Shown: positions 38,171 to 53,349 of the stretch, in pieces
Layout: the number at the start of each line of letters is the position of its first letter
How positions within the stretch are numbered: the first letter of the stretch is position 1
Assembly (NCBI GenBank): GCA_945870425.1
Contig: CAMBSD010000010.1
Coordinates: forward strand, 1-64,000
Source of the DNA: Chitinophaga pinensis
GTDB lineage: Bacteria > Bacteroidota > Bacteroidia > UKL13-3
Length of the DNA: 64,000 nucleotides
Direction: 5' to 3'
Made by a program: the position numbers and the translations under genes
The notes under the pieces: model-generated
The model's input: the letters and a program-made list of their open reading frames with translations, nothing else
What the model was told of the DNA's origin: nothing
The model's database searches: none

Positions 38171-38297
38171 AAAATATTGAATTAAGAATAGTTGAAAAAA
38201 AATGCCAAGTATGCAACCAATTTTCTAGAATAGTTTACTTCTTATTAAATAAAAGTAATTTTATTGAAAAATATTATAGATTGGTGGCGGAATTTTG

Positions 38298-39239
38298 ATG
38301 CCAATGCAAGTAATAATTGTGGATGATGTTCATCCAATTCTAATAAATGGTTTGAAGGAAGATAATTTCATAGTTGATTATTTGCCTGGTGCGAGTGAGA
38401 ATGAAATACTTTCTGTTATTCAGAATTATGAAGGCATAGTAGTGAGGAGTAAATTGCAATTGGGTGAACAAGTTTTATCCAAAGGTTCAAAACTAAAATG
38501 GATTGCTAGGGCAGGAAGTGGAATGGATAATGTGGATGTTGAATTTGCAACTAGAAATAATATTATTTGTTTGAATGCTGCAGAAGCCAATGCAGATTCA
38601 GTAGGTGAACATACGGTGGGCATGTTGCTATCATTGATGCACAAATTAAATCAAGCTGATCTTCAGGTAAGAGCCAGTATCTGGGATAGGGAAGGAAACA
38701 GAGGCGTTGAAATAAGTAGCAAAACCATTGGTATTGTGGGTTTTGGGCATACAGGGAAATCCGTTGCCAAGAAACTAAGTGGTTTTGGATGTAAGATTTT
38801 GGTCTATGATAAGTATCTTGAGAATTATGGAACTGGGAATACCCAACAATCTGAAATGGACCAAATTTTTGAGGAATGTGATATCATTACTTTTCATGTT
38901 CCATTGACCAAAGAAACAAAAGGGATGGTAGATAATATTTACCTAAATCGCTTCAAAAAGTCGATTTATTTGCTGAATTTGAGCCGAGGAAAGGTAATTA
39001 GGACAAAAGATTTGGTGAAGTGTATGGAAAGTGGAAAAGTTTTGGGAGTGGCCTTGGACGTCTTGGAAAATGAAAAAATTGGAAAATTGAGTGAGGATGA
39101 AAAAGAGTGGTTTGAATATTTAATTCACTCAAAGCGAACACTTTTAGCCCCTCATGTGGGGGGGTGGAGTAAAGAAAGCTATCAAAAAATTTCTGAATCG
39201 TTATTGTTGAAAATAAAAGAATTAAAGAGCAAAATTTAA
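38298..39239 (+). CDS. D-2-hydroxyacid dehydrogenase (phosphoglycerate dehydrogenase-like)
   Basis: A 313-residue NAD-dependent dehydrogenase of the SerA/2-hydroxyacid family. The nucleotide-binding motif is GIVGFGHTGKSVAKKL. Catalytic Arg (NLSRGKV), Glu (DVLENEK) and His (APHVGGWS) are all present. There is no ACT domain, so it is the short form. A TTG three bases upstream is not needed; ATG at 38298 or 38304 is the likely start. The substrate, 3-phosphoglycerate or another hydroxyacid, is not determined. Confidence 0.88.
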   Translation: MPMQVIIVDDVHPILINGLKEDNFIVDYLPGASENEILSVIQNYEGIVVRSKLQLGEQVLSKGSKLKWIARAGSGMDNVDVEFATRNNIICLNAAEANADSVGEHTVGMLLSLMHKLNQADLQVRASIWDREGNRGVEISSKTIGIVGFGHTGKSVAKKLSGFGCKILVYDKYLENYGTGNTQQSEMDQIFEECDIITFHVPLTKETKGMVDNIYLNRFKKSIYLLNLSRGKVIRTKDLVKCMESGKVLGVALDVLENEKIGKLSEDEKEWFEYLIHSKRTLLAPHVGGWSKESYQKISESLLLKIKELKSKI

Positions 39240-39339: not shown

Positions 39340-42300
39340 ATGATGAAAAAAATATACATCCTACTCATTGCATTATTTGCCATTCACTTTGCGGCACAAG
39401 CACAGTCTGGTTTTGGCGAAATCCGTGGTAAAGTAATTGATGAAAAGACTAAGAAACCTATGGATTATGTTACGGTAACAGCCTATTTGAATGGTATTGC
39501 CAAAGCATCCACCCAAACAGATGACGAAGGTGGTTATACTTTCAAAACGCTTCAAGTTGGAGAATACAGCATTAAAGCCTACTACTCTGGTTACCCGCTT
39601 CAAACAGTTACTGATATTGGTGTAAATCCTGATGGAATTACATTTGTAAATGTTACAATGGAGCAAAATGTTAATCTGAAAGAAGTTGTAATTAAAGACA
39701 AACCTGCCTTGATTAGAAAAGATGGTGTGAGTGGTGCTCAATTTAACGCTGCCAAGATTATGGCCTTGCCACAACGTAACGTAAATGCAGTTGCAAATTT
39801 AACAGCTGGTGTTGAAAGTCGTGGTGGTGCTACGCCAAACATACGTGGTGGACGTTCTGAAAATACTGCCTATTATATTGACGGTATTCGTGTGCAAGGC
39901 GGATCTAGTACAGGTATCGCTTCAAATGCTATTGACCAAATCCAAGTAATTACGGGTGGTACACCGGCACAATATGGTGACTTTATTGGTGGGGCTATCT
40001 CAATCACAACAAAAGCCCCAACTAAAAGATTTATTCGTTCAATAGAATATACTACTTCAACTCCTTTTACGGGTTATTTAGATAACTCGCAATTTAACCA
40101 ATTAGAGGGCGTATTGTCGGGCCCACTTAAAATAATAAACAAAGGTAAAGGTGATAAAGAAAGAGTTTTGATTGGATTTTTACTTTCTACCAATATCAAC
40201 TACCAATTAGATGGTCGCTTACCTTCAACAGATATTTATAAAGTAAACGACACCAAATTAGCCGAATTACAAGCACGTCCTTTGACATTGGCTTCAAATG
40301 GTTCGTTGGTTTATTCTGCTGAATTCCTGCGAAAAACAGATTTGGAAAAGGTTGATTACCGACAAAATGTTCCGCAATATGCTATCAATTTGCAAGGTAA
40401 CTTCAATTTCCAACCTGCCGAGAATATAAACATACGTTTAGGATATCAAGGTAATTATTTTAACGGTCGCGACTATAGCTATTATAGTTCTTTGATGAAT
40501 GCTTCCAACAATCCTTTAAGAAATGATTATACTGTAAGAGCTTATTTACAATTCACTCAAACTTTCAACAAAAAGAAAGATGAAGAGAAGGATAAAAAAG
40601 AAGCTAAAGGTGGCATAACAGATGCATTCTACACTGTTAGGGTTTCCTATGAAAATCGATTCGTTGAAGTGATGGATGCAGTTCACCAAAAGAATTTCTT
40701 TGATTATGGTTATATCGGACAATTCAAAACCTATAAAGCACCAGCTTTCGAAAGAATTAGTAAGTCATTTGGTCAAGCCCCTGATACTTTTAAAGTGAAT
40801 GGAAATGATTATTATTTAACCAGTTATTGGAAGCAAAACTCCTTTAGAGACACAGCTTATAGATTTGTTCCTGGTGATGCAAACCCAGTTTTAGCAAATT
40901 ACACTAAAACTGTTTATGACTTGCTAGGAAACAGTAATATACGCACAGTGGATGACTTATTAGGTTCTCGCGGTTTGACAAACGGAAGTCAGCCTGATGG
41001 TATTTATTCATTTATGTGGGGTAATGTGGGAACCAACCAAGCTTCATATGCTAAATTAAATAATGAAACCTATTCGGCATATATTATGAGTGAAGCGAGT
41101 GTTGCGCCAAAAAGTAATCCTAAAGCTAAGCACGATTTGCAATTCGGTATTAATATAGAGCAACAGTACAATAGATCATACAGTTTAGGTGCTGTAGGTT
41201 TATGGACAGCCATGAGACAATTAGCTAATGAGAAATTCCCAGGCGAAGGTAACTTAGACCCTGCTACCGCTAAACTAAAATTTGATGCCAACGGTGTTTT
41301 CCAAGATACTGTAACCTTTGATAGAGCAGTTGCTGATAGCTTAACCAATCAATTTGGTGAAAACTTAAGAAATAAATTGCGTGATATGGGAGCCACCGAC
41401 ATTTCTGGAAGACCTATTGATAGTAAGTCTTACATTGATGTTAATTCATACAATCCTAATACCTTCTCTTTAGATATGTTCAGTGCAAATGATTTATTAA
41501 GAAATGGTGTAGGTTCATTAGTTAGTTATAATGGATATGACTATTTAGGAAATAGAGTGGGCGGACAACCTGGGATCAAAGATTGGATTAAAAACAGAGC
41601 ATTACCAGCATATCAGCCAACATACGCTGCAGCTTGGTTCCAAGATAAATTTGTATTTAAAGATTTAATTTTACGTTTAGGTGTGCGTGTTGAAAGGTTT
41701 GATGCAAATCAACCTGTGTTAAAAGATCCATTTTCATTGGTTCCAATCTATACCGCTGGAGATGTTAAAAACGGCAATATCAAAGGATTGGCAAGTCAAA
41801 TACCAAGTACCATTGGTGATGGATATGCGGTATATGTTGACAGAGCAGGTGTAGACCAAGCCCTATCGAATAACAACATTAATATAACTGGATTTAGAAG
41901 TGGCGATAAGTGGTATGATAAAAATGGTAATTATGTATCAGACCCAAATACTTTGAATAAAAACTATCAAACCTTAAATGGACAAAATGCTCCATTATTG
42001 GTTGATCCAACCAAACCTGAAACACCAACTGAAAATTCATTTAAAGATTATGTTCCGGATGTAAAAGTTTCTCCTCGCGTTTGGTTCTCGTTCCCTATTT
42101 CAACAACATCGCAGTTCTTCGGTACTTACGATATCTTAACGCAAAGACCTGCAGCTGCTGGATTTAGTCCAAACAACGCACAATTTGATGATTATTTCTT
42201 CTTACAATATAGAAGAGGTGGAGCTATCAATAATCCTGATTTGAAATTTACACAAGTAACTGATTATGAAATTGGTTTCCGTCAACAAATTGGAGATAAT

Positions 42301-43140
42301 TCAAGTTTAGGTATCATTGGTTCATACCGTGAGTTCAAAAACTTGATTCAACAATACAAATATGTTCAAGCTTGGCCATTTGACTATATCACCTATGGAA
42401 ACTTAGATTTCTCTACTGTTAAAAGTTTCCGATTGGAATATGAGTTGAGAGATTTAGGTAACGTAAATATCTCAGCAAACTATCAATTGCAATTTGTTGA
42501 AGGAACAGGTTCAGGAACTAATACTTCAGGTAATTTAGTCAATGCTGGTTTGGGCCAGTTAAGAACTGTATTCCCTCTAGATTACGATACACGTCATACC
42601 ATCAAAGGTACATTTGACTTCCATTATAAAGATGGTAAGAAATATGATGGTCCAGTTGTAAGAGGTAAGAAAATTTTAGAAAATGCAGGTTTCAATATTA
42701 TATTTAATACTGTTTCGGGTAGACCGTATACCCAAAATACAATCGCAGTGCCTGAAGGATTAAGTGGTGTTTCGGCTCGTTCTCCAATTAAAGGTACTAT
42801 CAATGGTTCAAACCTACCTGCACAGTTTTATACCGACTTAAACGTTGATAAGAACTTTACTTTCACAAGCAAAAAAATTGATGGAAGAACGGTTGAATAC
42901 AGAATGAGAATATTCTTAATCATTCAAAACTTATTTAATGAAGCCAACGTTCTAGGCGTATACAGATATACAGGTAGTGCCTATTCAGATGGGTTTGTTA
43001 CTTCTCCGCAAGCAATTGAAAGTTTGCGTGCTTCAACCAATGTACAATCTTTTGTTGACTTGTATAATACAAGGATAGTTAATCCTGGCAATTTTGCCTT
43101 GCCTCGTTTAACCCGTTTTGGTATTCAATTAACATTTTAA
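39340..43140 (+). CDS. TonB-dependent receptor with N-terminal carboxypeptidase regulatory-like domain
   Basis: A 1266-residue outer-membrane receptor. After the signal peptide (KIYILLIALFAIHFAAQAQ) comes a beta-sandwich carboxypeptidase regulatory domain (GEIRGKVIDEKTKKPMDYV, about 25-115). The plug follows (NVNAVANLTAGVESRGG, IRGGRSENTAYYIDGIRV, about 140-230), then the barrel with a C-terminal aromatic residue (GIQLTF). There is no SusD partner. It is first in an operon with a large secreted protein (11 bases downstream) and a PorV/PorQ-family barrel, a different arrangement from SusCD uptake loci. Confidence 0.92.
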   Translation: MMKKIYILLIALFAIHFAAQAQSGFGEIRGKVIDEKTKKPMDYVTVTAYLNGIAKASTQTDDEGGYTFKTLQVGEYSIKAYYSGYPLQTVTDIGVNPDGITFVNVTMEQNVNLKEVVIKDKPALIRKDGVSGAQFNAAKIMALPQRNVNAVANLTAGVESRGGATPNIRGGRSENTAYYIDGIRVQGGSSTGIASNAIDQIQVITGGTPAQYGDFIGGAISITTKAPTKRFIRSIEYTTSTPFTGYLDNSQFNQLEGVLSGPLKIINKGKGDKERVLIGFLLSTNINYQLDGRLPSTDIYKVNDTKLAELQARPLTLASNGSLVYSAEFLRKTDLEKVDYRQNVPQYAINLQGNFNFQPAENINIRLGYQGNYFNGRDYSYYSSLMNASNNPLRNDYTVRAYLQFTQTFNKKKDEEKDKKEAKGGITDAFYTVRVSYENRFVEVMDAVHQKNFFDYGYIGQFKTYKAPAFERISKSFGQAPDTFKVNGNDYYLTSYWKQNSFRDTAYRFVPGDANPVLANYTKTVYDLLGNSNIRTVDDLLGSRGLTNGSQPDGIYSFMWGNVGTNQASYAKLNNETYSAYIMSEASVAPKSNPKAKHDLQFGINIEQQYNRSYSLGAVGLWTAMRQLANEKFPGEGNLDPATAKLKFDANGVFQDTVTFDRAVADSLTNQFGENLRNKLRDMGATDISGRPIDSKSYIDVNSYNPNTFSLDMFSANDLLRNGVGSLVSYNGYDYLGNRVGGQPGIKDWIKNRALPAYQPTYAAAWFQDKFVFKDLILRLGVRVERFDANQPVLKDPFSLVPIYTAGDVKNGNIKGLASQIPSTIGDGYAVYVDRAGVDQALSNNNINITGFRSGDKWYDKNGNYVSDPNTLNKNYQTLNGQNAPLLVDPTKPETPTENSFKDYVPDVKVSPRVWFSFPISTTSQFFGTYDILTQRPAAAGFSPNNAQFDDYFFLQYRRGGAINNPDLKFTQVTDYEIGFRQQIGDNSSLGIIGSYREFKNLIQQYKYVQAWPFDYITYGNLDFSTVKSFRLEYELRDLGNVNISANYQLQFVEGTGSGTNTSGNLVNAGLGQLRTVFPLDYDTRHTIKGTFDFHYKDGKKYDGPVVRGKKILENAGFNIIFNTVSGRPYTQNTIAVPEGLSGVSARSPIKGTINGSNLPAQFYTDLNVDKNFTFTSKKIDGRTVEYRMRIFLIIQNLFNEANVLGVYRYTGSAYSDGFVTSPQAIESLRASTNVQSFVDLYNTRIVNPGNFALPRLTRFGIQLTF

Positions 43141-43151
43141 TAATTACTCAT

Positions 43152-46100
43152 ATGAAAGTATATACATATAAAACTCAATTTTTTAAAAGTTTATTATTCT
43201 TACTTGCTATTGCAACATCAGGCGCTAACCTATACGCAAAAGAGAATGTAAGAAACAGAGAAGAGAAAAGAACACCCTCTAATCAAATGGCAATCGGACA
43301 GATTTTACAGAAAGGTTCAGGATGTACGGTGGGTTCTCAGCAGAAAGAATTGTCAATTAATAATGTTCGCACTCGTATTTTGAATGGGGGAGACATGTGG
43401 TGGGATTTACAAAGCGCGAAATATGAAATACCAAAAGTACCTGCAGGACAAGTTTCAAAGAACTCATTGTTTGCTGGAGCTTTATGGATTGGTGGTGTAA
43501 GTAGTGGAAACTTAAGATTAGCTGCCCAAACTTACCGTCAAGGTGGTAGTGATTATTTTCCTGGGCCGCTTATCGCTGGTTCTGCAACTATTTCATCATC
43601 TCGTTGTAAAGATTTCGATAAAATTTGGAAGATACAGTTACAAGAGATTGTTAATTTTCAGAATGATGCACAAGCAGCTGTAGATGCAAATAATGATTTT
43701 TTAACTTGGCCAGGTAATGGAAAAGTATCAGACGGAGAGGCTGCATTTCTCGCACCTTATTACAATGCCCCAAGCGATGAAGCAAAAGGTATCATAAATG
43801 ACCCCAATTTATATGAGCCTGAAAAAGGAGATTTTCCTTCACTAGACCAAAACAGAAAAGACAATATTCCTGATGAAATGATTTATATTCTTTATAATGA
43901 TAAAGGAAATGTTCATACTGAAACAGGAGGGCTTCCAATTGGATTGGAATTACATACACAATGTTTTGCTTTTGCTACAAACAATGAATTGAACAATACT
44001 ACATTATATAGAACTACTATCTATAACAGAGGAAATGAAACAATTGACTCATGTGTTTTTGGTCAATGGGTTGATCCTGATTTAGGTAACTATACAGATG
44101 ATTATGTTGAGTGTGATTTAGCTGTTGATCCTGTAAACAATGTTCCAAGAAATTTGGGTATTTGTTATAATGGTGATGATAATGATGAAGGTGTATTTGG
44201 TTATGGATTGAATCCCCCTAGTATTGGTGTTCGTTTTTTCGAAGGTCCTAAGAAAGCCGATGGAACCTTATTGGGTATGACTAAATTTATTTATTATAAC
44301 AATGACTTTTCTGTAATAGGTAATCCCAATAGACCATCAGATTATTGGGGTTATTTGAATGGAAGATGGAAAGATAACAAAGTAATTACTTACGGTGGAA
44401 ATGGTAGAGACGGGGCTGATACATCTAGCTTTATGTTCCCTGGTAAAACCGATCCAGCTGGAAGGGTTAATTGGACGGAAAGAACTGCCAACAACGCTCC
44501 TGGTGATAGACGTTTTCTTCAAACTTCAGGTCCATTCAGTATGTTGCCTGGAGCCGTAAATAAAGTAACTGTTGGTGTTGTTTGGGCTAGAGCAACCACT
44601 GGAGGTGCCACAGGGTCATTCAATTTACTGAAAACAGCTAGTGATAGAGCTTATCAATTGTTTAAAGCTGATTTTGTTAATCCCAAATCACCGATTGCGC
44701 CTGATGTAACAATTACTGAATTAAATAGAGAGTTAATTTTAACCCTTAATAACTATAAGACAACAGAATCTTTTGTAGACACCATCAAAGGGCCTTGCAA
44801 TGAAAAAACTAAAATTAAATTTCAAGGATATAAAATTTATCAATTGAAAAACAATAATTCAGGAGCTGATTTATCAGATCCAACCCAAGCAAAATTGGTA
44901 GCTCAGTGTGATATTCAAGATGAATATACCAGATTGACCAATGTTGTAAGAGATATAGAGTTGGGTCAATCATATAAAGTTGTTCAAGTAGATGGAGAAA
45001 ATAAAGGTATTAGACATACTTTTAGTTTAACCCAAGATGCATTCTCTACCCTTTCAGATAGAAGATTTGTTAATTTTAACGAATACCATTTCTTGTTGGT
45101 TGCTTATGCTAATCCTGTAAACTGTCCAATTGTTGAAGAACAATACATTTCAGGAAGTACAAATATTTCAACAGGTACTTCATTAGTGCATACGGGTACA
45201 CCTCATGATCCAACCCCAAGAGCAGAAGGTTCTGTTATTAACTCAAGTTTAAATACCGGCCCTGAAATTACTAGGATTGAAGGTATTGGAAATGGCGGTA
45301 ATACAATAAGACTTTCAAGAAAAACAATCGAAGAATGTTTAACTTCACCAAATTATGCTGCTATAGCACCTACCTACGAAAAAGGATTTAGCCCTGTTAC
45401 TATTAGAGTATTTGATCCATTCAAAGTTCCATTAGCTGATTTTGAATTGAAATTGGTTGATAGTTCTTCTTATGGCAATAAAGCAGATTCTATTTCAGCT
45501 CCAAGCACAAGATGGTTTTTAACTAGACTTGGTCCTAATTCTAAAACTATTTCATCTGAAGTTGCTATTTCTGTTAATAATGAGCAAATAATAGAAGAGT
45601 GGGGATTAGCACTTAATGTCACCTCTACAATCAGGCCGGGAAATCAAACATCTCAGTTTGACTTGACAAATGGTTTTATTTCGGGAGAATTGACTTATGA
45701 AAATACTTCAAACAGATGGTTGACGGGTGTGGCGGATGAAGATGCTAACTATCTATCTAGTATGGGATATCCTGAGTCTGTGACCATTCCTTTTAATTGG
45801 ATTAGGTCGGGGGCAAGTGGAAAATCTAATAACTATAATGATCCTTTAAGAAATGACTTTTCGATTGGTGGTGAGGCAATGGATGCTGGTAAAAACTTTG
45901 GTAAAATATTAGGAGGCACTTGGGCTCCTTACGGATTGGCTGCAAAAGAGGTAAGTACGAATACCCCTACTTTAGGACCTGGATGTAAAATCACAACAGG
46001 GGGTGGAAGTACTGATAATACATTGAATGATTTACAAAGCGTAGACATTGTGTTTACAAACGATAGAAGCAAGTGGAGCAGATGTGCGGTAGTTGAAACA

Positions 46101-47078
46101 GGAGAGTTAGCTGCATTTAATGTTGGAAATGCCGACAAATTTGACCTTAGAGCTTCTCCATCTGTAGATAAATTTGGTAAGCCTGACGGCACTGGAAATG
46201 GTATGGGTTGGTTCCCTGGCTACGCAATTAATGTTGAAACAGGTGAACGTTTGAACATTATGTTTGGAGAAGATTCTTCTATTCCATCAGAAAATGGAAA
46301 TGACATGATTTGGAACCCTACCAAAAATCTTCTTTCAAAAAATTTCTTAAGCCCGGTATTTGGCGGAAAACATTATGTCTATATTATGGGTAACAAGAAG
46401 TTTAAATCGGGAACTAAAGAGGTTGGTACTAAATATGACTTATGTGCCTCATATGCTTCTATATTAAGTGATGCAAGTATCTCTAATAAGTCATTAAGAA
46501 AAAGATTGGTATTTTCTCAAGCTATGTGGGTTACTATGCCTATGGTTAAAAACGATAGAAATGTAAGTTTAGCTTCAATTGAAGGAGGTATTGTGCCGAA
46601 TGAAGTTACTGTTCGATTAAGGGTTAAACGTCCTTATGCAAAATACATCAATTCGCTAACCACCACACCTTTGGCTAATGACAGCGCTCCATTGTATAGA
46701 TTCTCAACAGCTAGTGTTTTTCCTGATAAAGCAAATTCAGACGCTGCCAAAAAAGCTTTGGACATGATTACCGTTTCTCCTAATCCTTATTATGCTTATG
46801 CAGGTTACGAGAATCCAAATAACCAATTGGATACCAGAGTTAAGATCATTAATTTACCAAATAAATGTACGGTATCAATCTTTACCATGAACGGTTTCTT
46901 GGTACGAAGATTTAAAAAGGATGATGACAAAACCCATTTAGATTGGGATTTGAAAAATGAAGCCTTAGTTCCTATTGTGAGTGGTATATATTTGGTTCAT
47001 ATTGATGCTCCAAATATGGGTGAGAGGGTTATTAAATGGTTTGGAATTATGCGTCCTGTAGATTTTGATACATTCTAG
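43152..47078 (+). CDS. Large secreted protein with FlgD/T9SS-like C-terminal domain
   Basis: A 1308-residue protein with a signal peptide (SLLFLLAIATSGANLYA). The N-terminal region has ARILNGGDMWWDLQSAKYEIPK-like segments (residues about 70-95) seen in large Bacteroidota cell-surface proteins. No enzyme motif is visible. The C-terminus (about 1210-1300) is an Ig-like FlgD/T9SS-type domain: VSPNPYYAYAGYE, CTVSIFTMNGFLVRRF, GIYLVHIDAP, followed by WFGIMRPVDFDTF. Cysteines are scattered. It sits between the TonB receptor and the PorV-like gene with gaps of 11-13 bases, so it is probably the surface partner of both. Confidence 0.8.
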   Translation: MKVYTYKTQFFKSLLFLLAIATSGANLYAKENVRNREEKRTPSNQMAIGQILQKGSGCTVGSQQKELSINNVRTRILNGGDMWWDLQSAKYEIPKVPAGQVSKNSLFAGALWIGGVSSGNLRLAAQTYRQGGSDYFPGPLIAGSATISSSRCKDFDKIWKIQLQEIVNFQNDAQAAVDANNDFLTWPGNGKVSDGEAAFLAPYYNAPSDEAKGIINDPNLYEPEKGDFPSLDQNRKDNIPDEMIYILYNDKGNVHTETGGLPIGLELHTQCFAFATNNELNNTTLYRTTIYNRGNETIDSCVFGQWVDPDLGNYTDDYVECDLAVDPVNNVPRNLGICYNGDDNDEGVFGYGLNPPSIGVRFFEGPKKADGTLLGMTKFIYYNNDFSVIGNPNRPSDYWGYLNGRWKDNKVITYGGNGRDGADTSSFMFPGKTDPAGRVNWTERTANNAPGDRRFLQTSGPFSMLPGAVNKVTVGVVWARATTGGATGSFNLLKTASDRAYQLFKADFVNPKSPIAPDVTITELNRELILTLNNYKTTESFVDTIKGPCNEKTKIKFQGYKIYQLKNNNSGADLSDPTQAKLVAQCDIQDEYTRLTNVVRDIELGQSYKVVQVDGENKGIRHTFSLTQDAFSTLSDRRFVNFNEYHFLLVAYANPVNCPIVEEQYISGSTNISTGTSLVHTGTPHDPTPRAEGSVINSSLNTGPEITRIEGIGNGGNTIRLSRKTIEECLTSPNYAAIAPTYEKGFSPVTIRVFDPFKVPLADFELKLVDSSSYGNKADSISAPSTRWFLTRLGPNSKTISSEVAISVNNEQIIEEWGLALNVTSTIRPGNQTSQFDLTNGFISGELTYENTSNRWLTGVADEDANYLSSMGYPESVTIPFNWIRSGASGKSNNYNDPLRNDFSIGGEAMDAGKNFGKILGGTWAPYGLAAKEVSTNTPTLGPGCKITTGGGSTDNTLNDLQSVDIVFTNDRSKWSRCAVVETGELAAFNVGNADKFDLRASPSVDKFGKPDGTGNGMGWFPGYAINVETGERLNIMFGEDSSIPSENGNDMIWNPTKNLLSKNFLSPVFGGKHYVYIMGNKKFKSGTKEVGTKYDLCASYASILSDASISNKSLRKRLVFSQAMWVTMPMVKNDRNVSLASIEGGIVPNEVTVRLRVKRPYAKYINSLTTTPLANDSAPLYRFSTASVFPDKANSDAAKKALDMITVSPNPYYAYAGYENPNNQLDTRVKIINLPNKCTVSIFTMNGFLVRRFKKDDDKTHLDWDLKNEALVPIVSGIYLVHIDAPNMGERVIKWFGIMRPVDFDTF

Positions 47079-47091
47079 TACTTTAAAACAA

Positions 47092-48195
47092 ATGAAAATT
47101 ACAATGAAAAGATCTTTAAAAATAGTATTAATAATTTGTGCAATGGCACTTCAGAATGTGCAAGCAGGAAATCCTGATAGGGCAGGAGGGGCAGGTGCTA
47201 CACAGTTATTATTTAACCCTTATGCAAGGTCATTTGGCTATGGAGGTGTAAATACGGCATCAGTAAAAGGCCTAGAGTCATTTTACCTGAATATTGCCGG
47301 TTTAGCAAATGCTGATAAAACAGAGGTAACCTTCTCTCGTCAAAATTATTTGATGGGTGCGGGTGTAAATATTAATAACCTTGGTATTGCACAAAAAATA
47401 GGTGAAAATGGTGGTGTTATTGGTTTAGGAGTTATGTCATTTGATTTTGGCAATATTCCAACTGCTTCATATGAAAACCCTGATTTAACATTACCTTTTT
47501 ATAATCTTCAGGTACTTAATTTTGGTTTCTCATATGCAAAGAAGTTCTCGAATAGTATATCTGGTGGTATTCTATTGAGAATAGTTTCTGAAGGAGTATC
47601 TAATGCAAGTTCTAGTGGTGTTTGCTTTGATGGAGGTGTTCAGTACCAAACTTCATTAAATAGAACTAAGAAAATCAAAAAAGAGGATTTTAGATTTGGT
47701 ATCTCTGTTAGAAATCTAGGAGCTAATATGTCTTATTACGGTAATGGTTTGTCGTTTCGTTCAATTAACCAATCAACTGGTGCTGATAGAAGGGCTTTAA
47801 TGGCCGCAGAATCATTTAATATGCCAGCTTTGGTGCACATTGGTGCCTCTTATGATATGCGTTTAGATGCTAACCCTGATACCTATAATCATAAATTGAC
47901 CGCGTCTGCTAATTTTAATTATAATGCCTTTCAATCTGATGTTTTGGGTTTAGGTGCAGAATATTCGTACAAAGATGCTTTTATGGTTAGAGCTGCTTAT
48001 AACCATATTGATGGTAATTTTAGTTCTACTGATAATAGACAACCGGTTTATGGAATCTATACAGGATGCACTCTTCAAATGCCAGTTACTAAGACAGGAA
48101 CTATCTTGGCATTCGACTATGGTTATGCCCCAACTAGATTCTTTAGTGGTATTCAAACCATTGGAGTTAGATTATCTTTAGGAAATAGTAAATAA
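47092..48195 (+). CDS. PorV/PorQ-family outer-membrane protein
   Basis: A protein of about 367 residues with a signal peptide (KIVLIICAMALQNVQA) followed by GAGATQLLFNPYARSFGYGG and SFYLNIAGLANADKTEV, the PorV/PorQ-family start, and a predicted 14-strand-type barrel ending in GVRLSLGN. PorV is the T9SS shuttle that delivers cargo to the attachment complex; PorQ is a paralogue. Which paralogue this is cannot be read by eye. A frame open from 47065 uses a TTG inside the previous gene; ATG at 47092 or 47104 is preferred. Confidence 0.82.
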   Translation: MKITMKRSLKIVLIICAMALQNVQAGNPDRAGGAGATQLLFNPYARSFGYGGVNTASVKGLESFYLNIAGLANADKTEVTFSRQNYLMGAGVNINNLGIAQKIGENGGVIGLGVMSFDFGNIPTASYENPDLTLPFYNLQVLNFGFSYAKKFSNSISGGILLRIVSEGVSNASSSGVCFDGGVQYQTSLNRTKKIKKEDFRFGISVRNLGANMSYYGNGLSFRSINQSTGADRRALMAAESFNMPALVHIGASYDMRLDANPDTYNHKLTASANFNYNAFQSDVLGLGAEYSYKDAFMVRAAYNHIDGNFSSTDNRQPVYGIYTGCTLQMPVTKTGTILAFDYGYAPTRFFSGIQTIGVRLSLGNSK

Positions 48196-48214: not shown

Positions 48215-48256
48215 CAAAAGAGAAACGTTCGGCTTCGGTCCGGACGTTTCTTTTGT
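48215..48256 (+). terminator. Terminator of the receptor/T9SS/PorV operon
   Basis: GAAACGTTCGG pairs with CCGGACGTTTC (one wobble) around a GC-rich loop, followed by TTTTGTTTT. It lies 20 bases after the PorV-like stop. Confidence 0.85.
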
Positions 48257-48290: not shown

Positions 48291-48767
48291 ATGAGCGATA
48301 TTAATTATGTATCAAAAGAGGGATTTGAAAGAATGCAGAAAGAACTTTATGAATATAAATTTGTAAAGCGCCCTTTCATATCGAAACAAATCGCAGACGC
48401 ACGTGATAAAGGTGATTTGAGTGAAAATGCAGAATACCACGCTGCTAAAGAAGATCAAGGTTTGCTTGAAACTAAAATTGCCCAATTAGAAGATATTATA
48501 ACAAAGACAAGAATCATTGATGAATCTAAACTTGATATTAGCAAAGTAATGATGCTTACTAAGGTTACAGTTCTCAATCATAATGTAAAAAAAGAATTCA
48601 CCTATATGATTGTATCCGACTCAGAAGCTGATATGAAATTAGGTAAGATCTCAACAAAATCTCCAATTGGTGCAGGTTTAATTGGCAAGAAATTGGGTGA
48701 TATTGTTGAAATAAATGCCCCTGCGGGTGTCATAAAATTAGAAGTTATAAATATTAGTCTTACTTAA
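48291..48767 (+). CDS. greA: Transcription elongation factor GreA
   Basis: A 158-residue cleavage factor that rescues backtracked RNA polymerase through its secondary channel. The N-terminal coiled coil has the acidic tip DKGDLSENAEYHAAKEDQ. The C-terminal FKBP-like domain has YMIVSDSEADMKLGKIS and SPIGAGLIGKKLGD. Length is normal. The HIT gene starts one base after the stop, so the two are co-transcribed. Confidence 0.96.
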   Translation: MSDINYVSKEGFERMQKELYEYKFVKRPFISKQIADARDKGDLSENAEYHAAKEDQGLLETKIAQLEDIITKTRIIDESKLDISKVMMLTKVTVLNHNVKKEFTYMIVSDSEADMKLGKISTKSPIGAGLIGKKLGDIVEINAPAGVIKLEVINISLT

Positions 48768-48768
48768 T

Positions 48769-49167
48769 ATGTCGAGTATTTTCACTAAAATTATTAATGG
48801 TGAAATTCCATGTTATAAAATAGCTGAAAGCAAAGATTACTTTGCTTTTTTAGATATAAGACCTTTAACCAGGGGGCATACCTTAGTTGTACCTAAAGTT
48901 GAAGTGGATTATATTTTTGATTTGGAAAATGAACTTTATGCAGGGTTGTATTTGTTTTCTAAAATTGTTGCTGAGGCAATTCAAAAATCTGTTGATTGTA
49001 AGAGGGTTGGTACAGCTGTAATTGGCTTAGAAGTGCCTCATGCACATATTCATTTGATTCCATTTAATACGATGAATGAAATGAATTTTAGTAATCCCAA
49101 ATTAGAGTTATCTAAAGAAGAAATGCAGGCTATTGCCAATCATATTAAAAGCAATCTACCTGCCTAG
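48769..49167 (+). CDS. HIT-family protein (histidine triad nucleotide hydrolase/transferase)
   Basis: A 132-residue protein with the catalytic triad HAHIHLIP near residue 90 (VPHAHIHLIPF), the N-terminal FTKIINGEIPCYKI segment and FLDIRPLTRGHTLVVPK. Family members hydrolyse adenosine phosphoramidates or dinucleoside polyphosphates; the physiological substrate is unknown. It is coupled to greA, a common pairing in this phylum. Confidence 0.93.
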   Translation: MSSIFTKIINGEIPCYKIAESKDYFAFLDIRPLTRGHTLVVPKVEVDYIFDLENELYAGLYLFSKIVAEAIQKSVDCKRVGTAVIGLEVPHAHIHLIPFNTMNEMNFSNPKLELSKEEMQAIANHIKSNLPA

Positions 49168-49179
49168 TTTTTCGTCTTT

Positions 49180-52100
49180 CTATGGAGTTGACTTAATAAT
49201 TCCCAAGCTACTATTGATGTCAATCAAAGGATAGTCATTAAAGTCTGTGGATGCATCACCATTTAAATCGGTTGCTACATATCCTAAATCTCCATTTGAG
49301 CTAGAAATATCTAATGTTGGATAATCATTGAAATCTATGGAACCATCTTGGTTTATATCTCCACTGAAAATAGCGTATATACCATTCCCCATATCCACCA
49401 AGTTACTGCTATAAGCTTGTCCTATTCCACTACTAAAATTGTAGTTGGTTATGGCTGAAATGAATACTGGATTTGCACTCCAAGTTTCAATAGCATTCCT
49501 ATGTAATACTGAGATATAATAGGAGTTGCCAATACTTGCCCCTGGCAATATGATGTTTGATAGGCCATTTATATCTAATGTTGATTTTTGAGAGTATTGC
49601 GTGGAAAATGGTGCAGTGGATGAATGTAATTCAATCGTAACTGTATCTGCAATGCTTAATGATGAGGTGGCATCTGCATTTCTTGGTGCGCTTGTCATTT
49701 GATTATTACCAGTGTATAAACCTTGAATGAATGCCGTAATATTTAGGTTAACAACATTCGAAGTTATTACTGAGTCAATAGTTGAATTTACTGAGGCGCC
49801 ACTGGTATTGATGGATTTCAGTCGGTAGTAGTATTTAGTATTAGGATTTAAACCTGAAACCATGCTATTATTACCTATAACTGACAAGGCATTGTATCCA
49901 GTTATAAAACTTGTAAAGCTTCGATTTGATGATACATCTATGGTGTATGATGCTGCACCTAGAGCAGGTGTCCAATTTGCCTTGAAACTGTTAGTGCTTA
50001 TTGTATTTGCAAACAATGCAGTTGGTGGATTGCTGATTGTAGTTATGCTTGATTTAGTTGAATTTCCTGAACTGCAGTTACCTATAGATTTTACCCTACA
50101 ATAATATACTGTTCCAGCAGCCAATCCTGTAATAACTTTGGAATTAGTAGCTACGCTTAAAGCATTATAGCCAGAAACAAAGCTGCCAAAATTTGAGTCT
50201 ATAGATACATCAATTGTATAGGATGTTGCTCCAACTACACTTGACCAATTTGAGGTAAATGAGTTGACATTTGCTGAAGCACTTGTTAGGTTTGTAGGAG
50301 CATTTAGTATGGGGTTAACAGTCACTAATACGGTATCCCTATTTTGAATTCCTGAAAGGTTATGGGTGGCAGTTACAAAATAGGTGGTTGAAGAACCAGG
50401 AGTGGCACTTGGGTTACTAATGTTGGATGCACTTAAACCTGTTATTGGACTCCATGTGTATGACAAACCATTAACAGATGCACTACCAATACTTGTTGAT
50501 GCTCCAGTACAAATACTCTTGTCGATGCCTGCATTGGCTGCTACAGTTGCTGTAACATTTATGTTATCAAGATATAATTTATTGCCATAGCCATTTATAT
50601 TTTGAAAAGCAATAATCACGCTTGATTGTCCTATATATGGAGTTAAATTAATTGAATCCTTTCTCCATTGTGCAGCATTTGGAATAAAGCTAACTGAAGC
50701 ACTTCCAGCGGTAGATAAGGTAGTTCCACCTTTGGCATATATTCTTGTGAAAGTGGCACCACAATCTGTAGAAAGTAAAACGGCTAAGGTGTCAGAATAT
50801 CCCGAATATACTTGGTAGGCTACATCAAAAGTTACCCTAGCAGAATTATAATTAGATAAGTCAAACCTGCTAGTTTGAATCTCATCTTTTTGACCCACAA
50901 TATTCCAACTATAATTATCAAACATCATCGAGTTGGTGGAAGTTGCAAAACCTCCTGCTGTTGATGCCTTAACCCAAGCATTTCCTACGGTTCCATTATC
51001 TATATTTTTCCATCCAATGGGTGGATCAGTGGTTCCTTCAAACCCTTCTGAAATGGGCAGATTACCACCACTTGTATTGATGTAATTGCTTTTATTGGCT
51101 GTACTGTTGTTTGTGCCATCTGATACCGTTAAGGAAACATTATAAACACCTGAAGGGAAGGTGACAGTCGGGTTTGATAAAGTTGAACTTGATGGTGTGC
51201 CCCCCGTGAAGGTCCAATTTCTGCTTGCTACATTTCCAGTAGATAAATCCGAAAAGGTAACAGTAGCTCCTGGGCATGGGTTTGTATTGTCAGCTATAAA
51301 ATTACAGGTAAGGGCTCTTAAATTATTAATAGGTGTTTCCCACATTCCTCTTCCATAACTTGTATATCGTAACAGTGTATTGGATGTACTGTCGTTAAAA
51401 ATTGAGATATCAATAGCATCGGTTCTTGAAGGTAAGTTAGTATTGAAAATGGTCCAGGTATTAGCTGTGGCTATTTTGTAATAAACAGTATTATTGCTTG
51501 CAATAAATACCAATTCATTGCTTGAATAATATTCGTCAGCTATAATTTTATCGTGGTTGACTGAAGGTAGGTTGAATGTGATATTGGTCCAAGTAGCTCC
51601 GTTATTTGTTGAGCGATATACCTTGGTATTGATTGTTATGTATATGGTATTAATATTTGATTTTATGGTAGTGATATTTGCTTCATTGTTACTTGTGTTG
51701 GGTAGTGTGTAGCTTGTAAAACTAGGCGTGGCTGCCAAAGCATTTGTACTCACATAAATCAACCCATCGCTTGTGATTACATACAATCTATTTGCATCTG
51801 CGAAGTGACAATGCATGGCCATAATTTTTTTACCAAAGTTTGCAATTTGTGACCAGCTAGGCGCTCCAGCTGTGAGGTTTGTTGTGCGATAAATTATGGT
51901 ATCACTTGCAAAAGCTAGGTTAGGATTGCTTCTATGAAAGGTAATATCTGTAATATCTTCAACGGTTGATGGAAGTCCATAAGTAGCTTCGCTGCCATTA
52001 ACTAATCTCCTTTTAGGTAAATTTCTAGCTCCCCAATCTGGATTGTAATAATATGCCATAGAGCTATTAGGCCTGTAATCAAAAACACAATGCGATTGCC

Positions 52101-53349
52101 AATCGCCACCACGATTGGTGAACCACCCTGATGAATTTGCATATAACTCACCATTGTCTTGTGTGCCAATGCTAAACATATCTCTTCTAGTTGGACTGCA
52201 ACTACCATGGTATATCTCATATCCCGCTATGCCATCACTTTTGGGAGTCCAATTATTTCCCCCATCAACACTTAAAAAAATACCTCCATCATTAACATTG
52301 TATAGGTTTGCATTATTATAGGGTGAAGTAATAATTTGGTGCATATCAGTATGACATTTTTGCCACCAGTTCGTAAGTTGTGTCCATGTTACTCCGCCAT
52401 CCGTTGATTTCCAATTATTGTGGGCCACTAGGTATAAAATATTTGCATTGGTTCTATCTACTCCAATACCAAAATTATAATCTCCTTGACCAGATGAGGT
52501 TGGTGAATTATCATAATAGGTAAGGTATGGTGATGCTGTGTTTTTTACTGCCGAGAATGAAAGTCCTCCATTAATAGACTTGTAAACTGTGCCGCTATTT
52601 GCCACCATAGCGAGGTAAACCACATTGGTATCAGCGGGGGTTACTGCAATTCTACATCCATTTCCGTTGGTAATTCCTGAGGGTAAAACGATACCTGATG
52701 TAATTTGTGTCCAAGTATCGCCAAAGTCTAACGAGCGGAAAAATGCCGAATCTCTGGTAGCTGCATACAATGTTCTTGAAGTAGGTGTTTTTTGCTTTAA
52801 ATCACCAAAACCCCTTGACGCTGTTTTTAGTGTCCATGTTGAACCTGCATCATTGGTTTTATAAATACCTGTATTGGTAATGGCTACTATGCTGTTGTTA
52901 TTGTTAGGGTCCATTACCATATCAATTACTAATTTACCTGTTAGGGAAGTTTGGGTAAATGTTTGACCACCATTGGTAGATTTCATTACCCCATTTCCGG
53001 AATAATAATAATTACGATCACCTGTTCCCAAGTATATAATTTGGTCATTTGTATAATCAATACAAACTGATGCTAATCTAGCACTTGCCATAAAATCAGT
53101 ACCAGGCGCAACTACCCAATTAGCACCAGCGTCAGTGGTAATAAATAAGCCGCCCCGAGCACTTACTGCATACATTTTATTGGCATTACTTGCGTGAAAT
53201 TTTAGTTGACTTACGCGACTAATGCCATTTATTTGACCGCTTGCATTGGTAGGAAATTTGGTTGGTAATACAGCAGACCAATTGGCTGATTGAGAATAGC
53301 CAATGAATGTGCAAATAAGAGATAGTAATAGAAGTAGATATTTTTTCAT
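49180..53349 (-). CDS. Large secreted multidomain protein: BNR/sortilin propeller, PKD, MAM-like, FN3, dockerin-like repeats
   Basis: A 1389-residue protein with signal peptide MKKYLLLLLSLICTFIGYSQ. Residues about 20-660 hold many SxDxGxTW repeats (STNGGQTF, TDAGANW, SVDGGNNWTP), giving one or two seven-bladed BNR/sortilin-type propellers. A PKD domain follows (FSDLSTGNVASRNWTF), then a MAM-like jelly roll (SEGFEGTTDPPIGW), a second PKD-like part and two similar FN3 domains ending in TVYYCRVKS and TKYYYRLKS. The C-terminus carries two EF-hand-like loops (DINQDGSIDFND, DLNGDASTDFND) resembling dockerin. It is probably exported and surface-bound. Confidence 0.82.
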   Translation of the reverse strand: MKKYLLLLLSLICTFIGYSQSANWSAVLPTKFPTNASGQINGISRVSQLKFHASNANKMYAVSARGGLFITTDAGANWVVAPGTDFMASARLASVCIDYTNDQIIYLGTGDRNYYYSGNGVMKSTNGGQTFTQTSLTGKLVIDMVMDPNNNNSIVAITNTGIYKTNDAGSTWTLKTASRGFGDLKQKTPTSRTLYAATRDSAFFRSLDFGDTWTQITSGIVLPSGITNGNGCRIAVTPADTNVVYLAMVANSGTVYKSINGGLSFSAVKNTASPYLTYYDNSPTSSGQGDYNFGIGVDRTNANILYLVAHNNWKSTDGGVTWTQLTNWWQKCHTDMHQIITSPYNNANLYNVNDGGIFLSVDGGNNWTPKSDGIAGYEIYHGSCSPTRRDMFSIGTQDNGELYANSSGWFTNRGGDWQSHCVFDYRPNSSMAYYYNPDWGARNLPKRRLVNGSEATYGLPSTVEDITDITFHRSNPNLAFASDTIIYRTTNLTAGAPSWSQIANFGKKIMAMHCHFADANRLYVITSDGLIYVSTNALAATPSFTSYTLPNTSNNEANITTIKSNINTIYITINTKVYRSTNNGATWTNITFNLPSVNHDKIIADEYYSSNELVFIASNNTVYYKIATANTWTIFNTNLPSRTDAIDISIFNDSTSNTLLRYTSYGRGMWETPINNLRALTCNFIADNTNPCPGATVTFSDLSTGNVASRNWTFTGGTPSSSTLSNPTVTFPSGVYNVSLTVSDGTNNSTANKSNYINTSGGNLPISEGFEGTTDPPIGWKNIDNGTVGNAWVKASTAGGFATSTNSMMFDNYSWNIVGQKDEIQTSRFDLSNYNSARVTFDVAYQVYSGYSDTLAVLLSTDCGATFTRIYAKGGTTLSTAGSASVSFIPNAAQWRKDSINLTPYIGQSSVIIAFQNINGYGNKLYLDNINVTATVAANAGIDKSICTGASTSIGSASVNGLSYTWSPITGLSASNISNPSATPGSSTTYFVTATHNLSGIQNRDTVLVTVNPILNAPTNLTSASANVNSFTSNWSSVVGATSYTIDVSIDSNFGSFVSGYNALSVATNSKVITGLAAGTVYYCRVKSIGNCSSGNSTKSSITTISNPPTALFANTISTNSFKANWTPALGAASYTIDVSSNRSFTSFITGYNALSVIGNNSMVSGLNPNTKYYYRLKSINTSGASVNSTIDSVITSNVVNLNITAFIQGLYTGNNQMTSAPRNADATSSLSIADTVTIELHSSTAPFSTQYSQKSTLDINGLSNIILPGASIGNSYYISVLHRNAIETWSANPVFISAITNYNFSSGIGQAYSSNLVDMGNGIYAIFSGDINQDGSIDFNDYPTLDISSSNGDLGYVATDLNGDASTDFNDYPLIDINSSLGIIKSTP

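Follow-up and report, generated by a model that had tools for sequence, protein, structure and literature searches.

A conserved operon of a TonB-dependent receptor, a T9SS cargo and a PorV-like barrel in Bacteroidota: a possible counterpart of SusCD

The three-gene operon described here, which encodes a TonB-dependent receptor (TBDR), a large secreted protein of the T9SS type (the cargo) and a PorV-like barrel, might work as one outer-membrane machine, a T9SS-built and PorV-like-anchored functional counterpart of SusCD; we give this reading a probability of roughly one half (0.52). The operon lies in a stretch of 64,000 nucleotides from a Chitinophaga pinensis contig that was analysed as a whole (hereafter, the window). 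A first-pass annotation had placed three plus-strand open reading frames there and had proposed that a dedicated PorV-like paralogue, encoded with its own cargo and a receptor, makes up a surface module; the three frames are present as placed, and the gene comparisons appear to support the idea of such a module. No earlier description of the triad was found in open-access PubMed Central papers, a collection that covers almost no preprints.

The operon and its three products

The features of the operon and of its neighbours are collected in Table 1. Gaps of 11 and 13 bases had been annotated between the three genes; the first holds for a cargo start at 43152, while the second holds for a barrel start at 47092 (the barrel ORF spans 47065/47092-48195 on the plus strand in the ORF list) but gives way to 25 bases at the start favoured by the relatives. 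The terminator at the end of the operon, which had been called strong, ranks strongest in the region. The dehydrogenase, GreA-like and HIT genes are regarded as synteny partners and are not claimed as part of the proposed machine. The operon is also adjoined, on the minus strand (49180-53349), by a gene whose 1389-aa product combines sortilin/Vps10-type repeats with PKD and fibronectin III domains.

Table 1. Features of the triad operon and its flanking genes in the window.
Feature	Position	Strand	Remarks
2-hydroxyacid (D-3-phosphoglycerate type) dehydrogenase	38295..39239	+	upstream conserved synteny partner
TBDR gene	39340..43140	+	1266 aa; ORF call, Pfam domains
Cargo gene	43152..47078	+	1308 aa; ORF call, TIGR04183 match
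Cargo C-terminal sorting domain (CTD)	about residues 1205-1295		followed by a conserved C-terminal extension
Codons of conserved cargo tail KWFGIMRPVDFDTF (residues 1295-1308)	47034..47075	+	beyond the TIGR04183-matched region
PorV-like FadL-type outer-membrane barrel gene	47104..48195	+	first annotated from 47092; conserved start 47104
Intrinsic terminator of the operon	48218..48254	+	15 pairs plus T run
GreA-like protein	48291-48767	+	downstream synteny in Bacteroidia; family named from sequence alone
HIT-family hydrolase	48769-49167	+	downstream synteny in Bacteroidia; family likewise named from its sequence

The TBDR has a signal peptide recognised by eye, a CarboxypepD_reg domain (residues 28-118, 54.9 bits) and a Plug domain (residues 135-218, 37.8 bits), both over the Pfam cut-offs, and a barrel C-terminal to the Plug; the Plug domain together with the TonB-dependent barrel places it among the TonB-dependent receptors. 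A possible TonB-box stretch, LKEVVIKD, occupies residues 113-120, and its conservation was checked among relatives. The Pfam barrel model found no match in the window TBDR, while accessory-triad relatives do match it, and the only PDB sequence matches of the TBDR were to its regulatory domain and to distant plugs. The NCBIfam profile search did not match the TBDR to the SusC model TIGR04056, and SusCD membership was ruled out, as neither the SusC nor the SusD model matched in the operon.

Receptors of accessory triads and of other classes match PF25183 (OMP_b-brl_4), which we take to be the Oar-type barrel. Such matches would suit a receptor that aids export in an Oar-like manner, energising the release or the surface assembly of the cargo, and Oar of Myxococcus xanthus is reported to be a TBDR needed for secretion of the PopC protease (PMC6434023). 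This alternative is nevertheless very unlikely, given that the cargo has a T9SS CTD and tracks SprA, that the T9SS has its own motor and that the Pfam profile search found no PF25183 match in the window receptor.

The cargo, whose signal peptide was likewise recognised by eye, was assigned to no family by the Pfam search, has no binding or enzyme domain recognisable in profile searches and gave nothing useful in a PDB sequence search. Its T9SS-like C-terminus, already noticed in the first-pass annotation, is borne out by TIGR04183, the T9SS type A sorting domain: profile positions 2-62 of 72 align with residues 1219-1288 at a score of 23 bits, exactly the cut-off. The conserved tail beyond this match has a consensus of roughly GE[KR]..KWFG[VI]MR..D[LF]D[ST][FY] in the core triads of Bacteroidia, and a related tail is found in the core triads of other classes; moreover, cysteines 58, 152, 321 and 338 are invariant in all 54 of 54 aligned sequences. 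Neither a type B CTD nor PorP/SprF was among the NCBIfam matches of the operon, which rules out membership of the type B / PorP-SprF systems. In addition, the dedicated barrel encoded downstream would argue against carriage of the cargo by the shared PorV and cleavage of its CTD by PorU.

Inheritance of the triad and its relation to T9SS and SusD

The triad recurs in the order TBDR, cargo, barrel well beyond this strain. It is complete on 66 of 80 named contigs, with 13 others cut by contig ends and one holding a lone cargo. A class-level set of 40 loci, almost every one of them from a different family, comprises 34 complete triads, 2 truncated ones and 4 lone cargo paralogues, and of 20 loci in other Bacteroidota classes, 19 are triads. 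The same gene order across the phylum means that the operon arrangement is not due to chance, and a strain-specific chance order was ruled out by this recurrence. The cargo is present in 63/64 genomes of the order (45/45 good ones) and in 321 of the 395 sampled genomes of the class. Bacteroidetes bacterium UKL13-3 (CP012155, locus L077) is one carrier of the triad. Lone cargos, with no receptor or barrel nearby, were seen at loci L161, L163, L184, L189 and L089, and tandem duplicate cargos that share one barrel at L191.

Within Bacteroidia, the triad is mostly a single syntenic copy beside greA-HIT; these two genes follow it at almost every locus, and it is often preceded by a 2-hydroxyacid dehydrogenase gene. 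In other classes, too, the triad is preceded by a gene for an ACT-domain phosphoglycerate dehydrogenase, and the core triad was therefore probably inherited from the ancestor of the phylum Bacteroidota. This deep synteny of a dehydrogenase or greA-HIT with an outer-membrane operon (window 38295-39239 and 48291-49167; L198, L202, L203, L205, L207) is an observation in its own right, as are the genes for a multihaem cytochrome c and TPR proteins that immediately follow the core triad in several genomes of other classes (L198:2-1774, L205:3-2153, L215:3-1820).

A core triad that is near-universal, single-copy and syntenic with the dehydrogenase, greA and HIT in Bacteroidia might instead serve a housekeeping function in the envelope, such as outer-membrane biogenesis or integrity, with the accessory triads specialised for uptake later. 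FadL-type BamG has been reported to support the surface subunits of the Bacteroidota BAM complex (PMC12578637, PMC12611786). The BamG-BamH pair resembles the triad in that a FadL-family barrel holds an extracellular subunit above a second barrel of the outer membrane; however, BamH is a lipoprotein, BAM inserts outer-membrane proteins, and BamG ranks below PorV structurally. Two observations make a housekeeping function quite improbable, namely that the core triad is lacking in about 19% of the sampled class genomes, complete T9SS-bearing ones among them, and that accessory copies in some classes number about ten in a genome, as is the case for uptake systems.

SprA was found in 385 of the 395 genomes of the class. 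The cargo is likewise missing from seven of the ten that lack SprA, and the three with it are all draft assemblies. The cargo distribution appears to follow SprA, which fits T9SS dependence. By raw counts in 20 hand-picked, phylogenetically dependent genomes, three genomes that lack the triad, each of a different family, have 38, 19 and 32 SusD_RagB matches, and seventeen triad-bearing genomes have 0-7. The source genome has one such match (contig C3), and three of the triad-bearing genomes (G639, G660, G694) have none, with nine to twelve cargo-barrel pairs counted. The complementarity of triad and SusD in this small sample would support an uptake role.

The pairing of cargo and PorV-like barrel

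The earlier assignment of the barrel to the PorV/PorQ family agrees with NF033709, which it matches at 121.5 bits against a cut-off of 90. It falls short of the models for T9SS core PorV (NF033710, 57.6 bits against an equivalog cut-off of 250), PorQ (NF033711, 58.4 against 220) and PorV2 (NF052325, 31.3 against 325). The source genome has six PorV-family genes, i.e., core PorV, PorQ, PorV2, two more and the triad barrel; the true PorV adjoins porU on contig C6 and scores 476 bits, and PorQ and PorV2 are encoded elsewhere in the genome. In a tree of 65 PorV-family members, a single clade (35 rows, support 96/95), separate from PorV, PorQ and PorV2, unites the triad barrels, among them nearly all those of other classes; the divergent accessory-type barrel of L216 stands outside it. 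The objection that the barrel is the sole genomic PorV fails, since it has a separate clade and five other PorV-family genes exist; a core PorV role was ruled out on the same grounds and by the PorV beside porU, and the proposal of a dedicated paralogue stands. Elsewhere, at L196:5606-12233, a weak PorV-family barrel (48-56 bits) is flanked by an LruC-domain secreted protein of 1162 aa on one side and a ComEA-like protein on the other, which is perhaps another case of a secreted protein paired with a barrel. An unassigned PorV-family gene (172 bits) was noted near a TBDR with a weak SusC-model match (L194:7066-14445).

Genomes of other classes carry many extra cargo and PorV-like genes. Among the matches listed for ten of them, 62 of 79 cargo-type CTDs have a PorV-like gene <=250 bp downstream, and several of the unpaired ones are in tandem arrays beside one PorV-like gene. 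In three of the ten genomes, a PorV-like neighbour was found for 28/36 cargo-type versus 0/101 ordinary type A CTDs among the matches listed (p=2.7e-22), and the source genome gave 0/49 for a PorV-like gene downstream of ordinary type A CTDs, also among the matches listed. These neighbourhoods show the rule that each cargo-type CTD, or each array, has one dedicated barrel. The 20 loci chosen for the cargo-barrel pair hold 21 accessory triads and have a TonB receptor upstream in all cases; the accessory cargos end without the core-triad C-terminal tail.

Many accessory triads adjoin T9SS type A proteins, some of which have CBM9 or FG-GAP domains, and those directly upstream of the receptor (L249, L250, L254-L256, L260-L262 and L266, in G639, G660, G469 and G465) are a possible fourth component. 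Tandem arrays of proteins of about 550-600 aa, akin to the cargo N-terminal region, were also observed (G648 contigs C96, C200 and C232; G660 C11; G469 C6); G648 has some 20 copies of such proteins, and at least some of the arrayed proteins carry ordinary type A CTDs.

Distance-matrix (mirror-tree) correlations were 0.93 for TBDR and cargo and 0.83 for cargo and barrel, hardly above the 0.80-0.82 obtained with GreA, and they thus indicate co-inheritance rather than contact. The cargo could also be a T9SS surface protein, i.e., an adhesin, surface-layer or structural protein, held on its own barrel, while the TBDR is co-transcribed and has a separate job. The only pairing with a direct mechanistic precedent is that of cargo and barrel, namely type B CTDs with PorP/SprF (PMC9143113, PMC12618676), and a cargo that shows no binding or enzyme domain would also be in keeping with such a role. 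A mere passenger should often be lost, however, and the receptor is retained upstream phylum-wide, in core and accessory triads; as the SusD complementarity also points to uptake, a separate job for the TBDR is unlikely, without being negligible.

Structure prediction was applied to an artificial single chain, in which the cargo CTD and the barrel of a relative (locus L053) were read through the intervening stop codons and modelled by AlphaFold2 from an alignment of 24 further in-frame relatives plus partial rows. The CTD and the barrel reached about 88 and about 86 pLDDT, respectively; the linker itself brings the two close, and the interface was judged from pTM alone. We infer that the CTD has a defined place on the barrel, since the pTM was 0.73 despite about 130 of 590 residues being disordered, where a value near 0.6 would be expected otherwise. 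The best PDB matches of the model were PorV in SprA complexes (8gl6_F and 6h3i_F, TM 0.67-0.71), 8gl6_F being the PorV of the RemA-CTD-bound translocon, and FadL, TodX and BamG ranked below PorV. PorV is itself of the FadL family, and with FadL and TodX among the next best matches, the barrel might be read as a FadL-type importer of hydrophobic compounds in a two-channel uptake system, the cargo being an unanchored secreted capture protein. That the top match is PorV in the translocon rather than FadL, and that the barrel accompanies cargo-type CTDs rather than other secreted proteins, renders this extremely improbable, while a dedicated PorV-like carrier for the cargo is well supported.

The cargo body was modelled well, at pLDDT 79.9, and its fold search gave weak PDB matches, mostly to GH94/GH116-like enzymes (TM about 0.12-0.17), in which the about 300 aligned columns are taken to be a beta-sandwich domain. 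Together with the CBM9 neighbours, these folds hint weakly at carbohydrate as the ligand class.

Proposed mechanism and meaning

In the preferred reading of the triad as one machine, the cargo would cross via Sec and then, owing to its type A-like CTD, through SprA, the T9SS translocon. A T9SS substrate exits the translocon together with its carrier (PMC10994853), and the cargo's own PorV-like barrel, encoded just downstream, would collect it in place of the shared shuttle PorV. The cargo would then remain on the barrel through its uncleaved, extended CTD. Such retention is likened to that of PorU on PorV and PorZ on PorQ, whose uncleaved CTDs stay bound, and cognate PorV-like barrels have been suggested to shield CTDs from cleavage (PMC10202324); it is also likened to that of type B CTDs on PorP/SprF, FadL-family barrels that bring cargo out of SprA and can retain it (PMC9143113, PMC12618676). 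Anchored in this way, the cargo would cover or neighbour the TBDR as a surface binding subunit or lid and might pass a ligand on to the receptor, which would import it in a TonB-driven manner. Given the constant presence of a TonB receptor, import is the simplest purpose, and delivery of ligand by the cargo would gain from the SusD complementarity. The uncleaved CTD, the contact between TBDR and cargo, import and the ligand class are the elements of the machine that we infer.

The proposed machine shares with SusCD a TBDR with an N-terminal CarboxypepD_reg domain, a large surface-exposed partner encoded adjacent to it, multiple copies in many genomes and, presumably, assembly into an outer-membrane complex. 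In contrast to SusCD, its partner is not a SusD lipoprotein but a T9SS protein that bears a CTD and lacks a lipobox, its TBDR misses TIGR04056, and it has a third gene, whose PorV-like barrel would be the anchor instead of the lipid of SusD. Operons of type B CTD proteins with PorP/SprF, with or without PorE, similarly encode a secreted protein followed by its own FadL-family carrier; the CTD of the triad is type A-like, however, its barrel is PorV-like, and a TonB receptor stands where PorE sits. The PorV-PorU and PorQ-PorZ pairs have barrels of the same family and an uncleaved CTD bound to the barrel, as proposed for the triad, whereas the triad barrel is in a separate clade, under the PorV, PorQ and PorV2 cut-offs, and is encoded away from the genes of the attachment complex, once for each cargo gene or array.

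More broadly, the triads might represent an unrecognised class of T9SS cargo, with type A-like CTDs and PorV-like carriers of their own, and an ancestral Bacteroidota uptake system that predated SusCD and was later displaced in SusCD-rich lineages; this extension is tentative, possible but short of an even chance. According to the published rule, all type A CTDs use a single PorV shuttle, and dedicated carriers are a feature of type B CTDs (PMC12618676), against which stands a large, phylum-wide set of type A-like CTDs with dedicated PorV-like barrels, each pair being tied to a TonB receptor. If the triad is an importer, it would be a main nutrient-uptake system of the many Bacteroidota with few or no SusCD genes, and the T9SS would be linked to nutrient uptake, beyond secretion and gliding.
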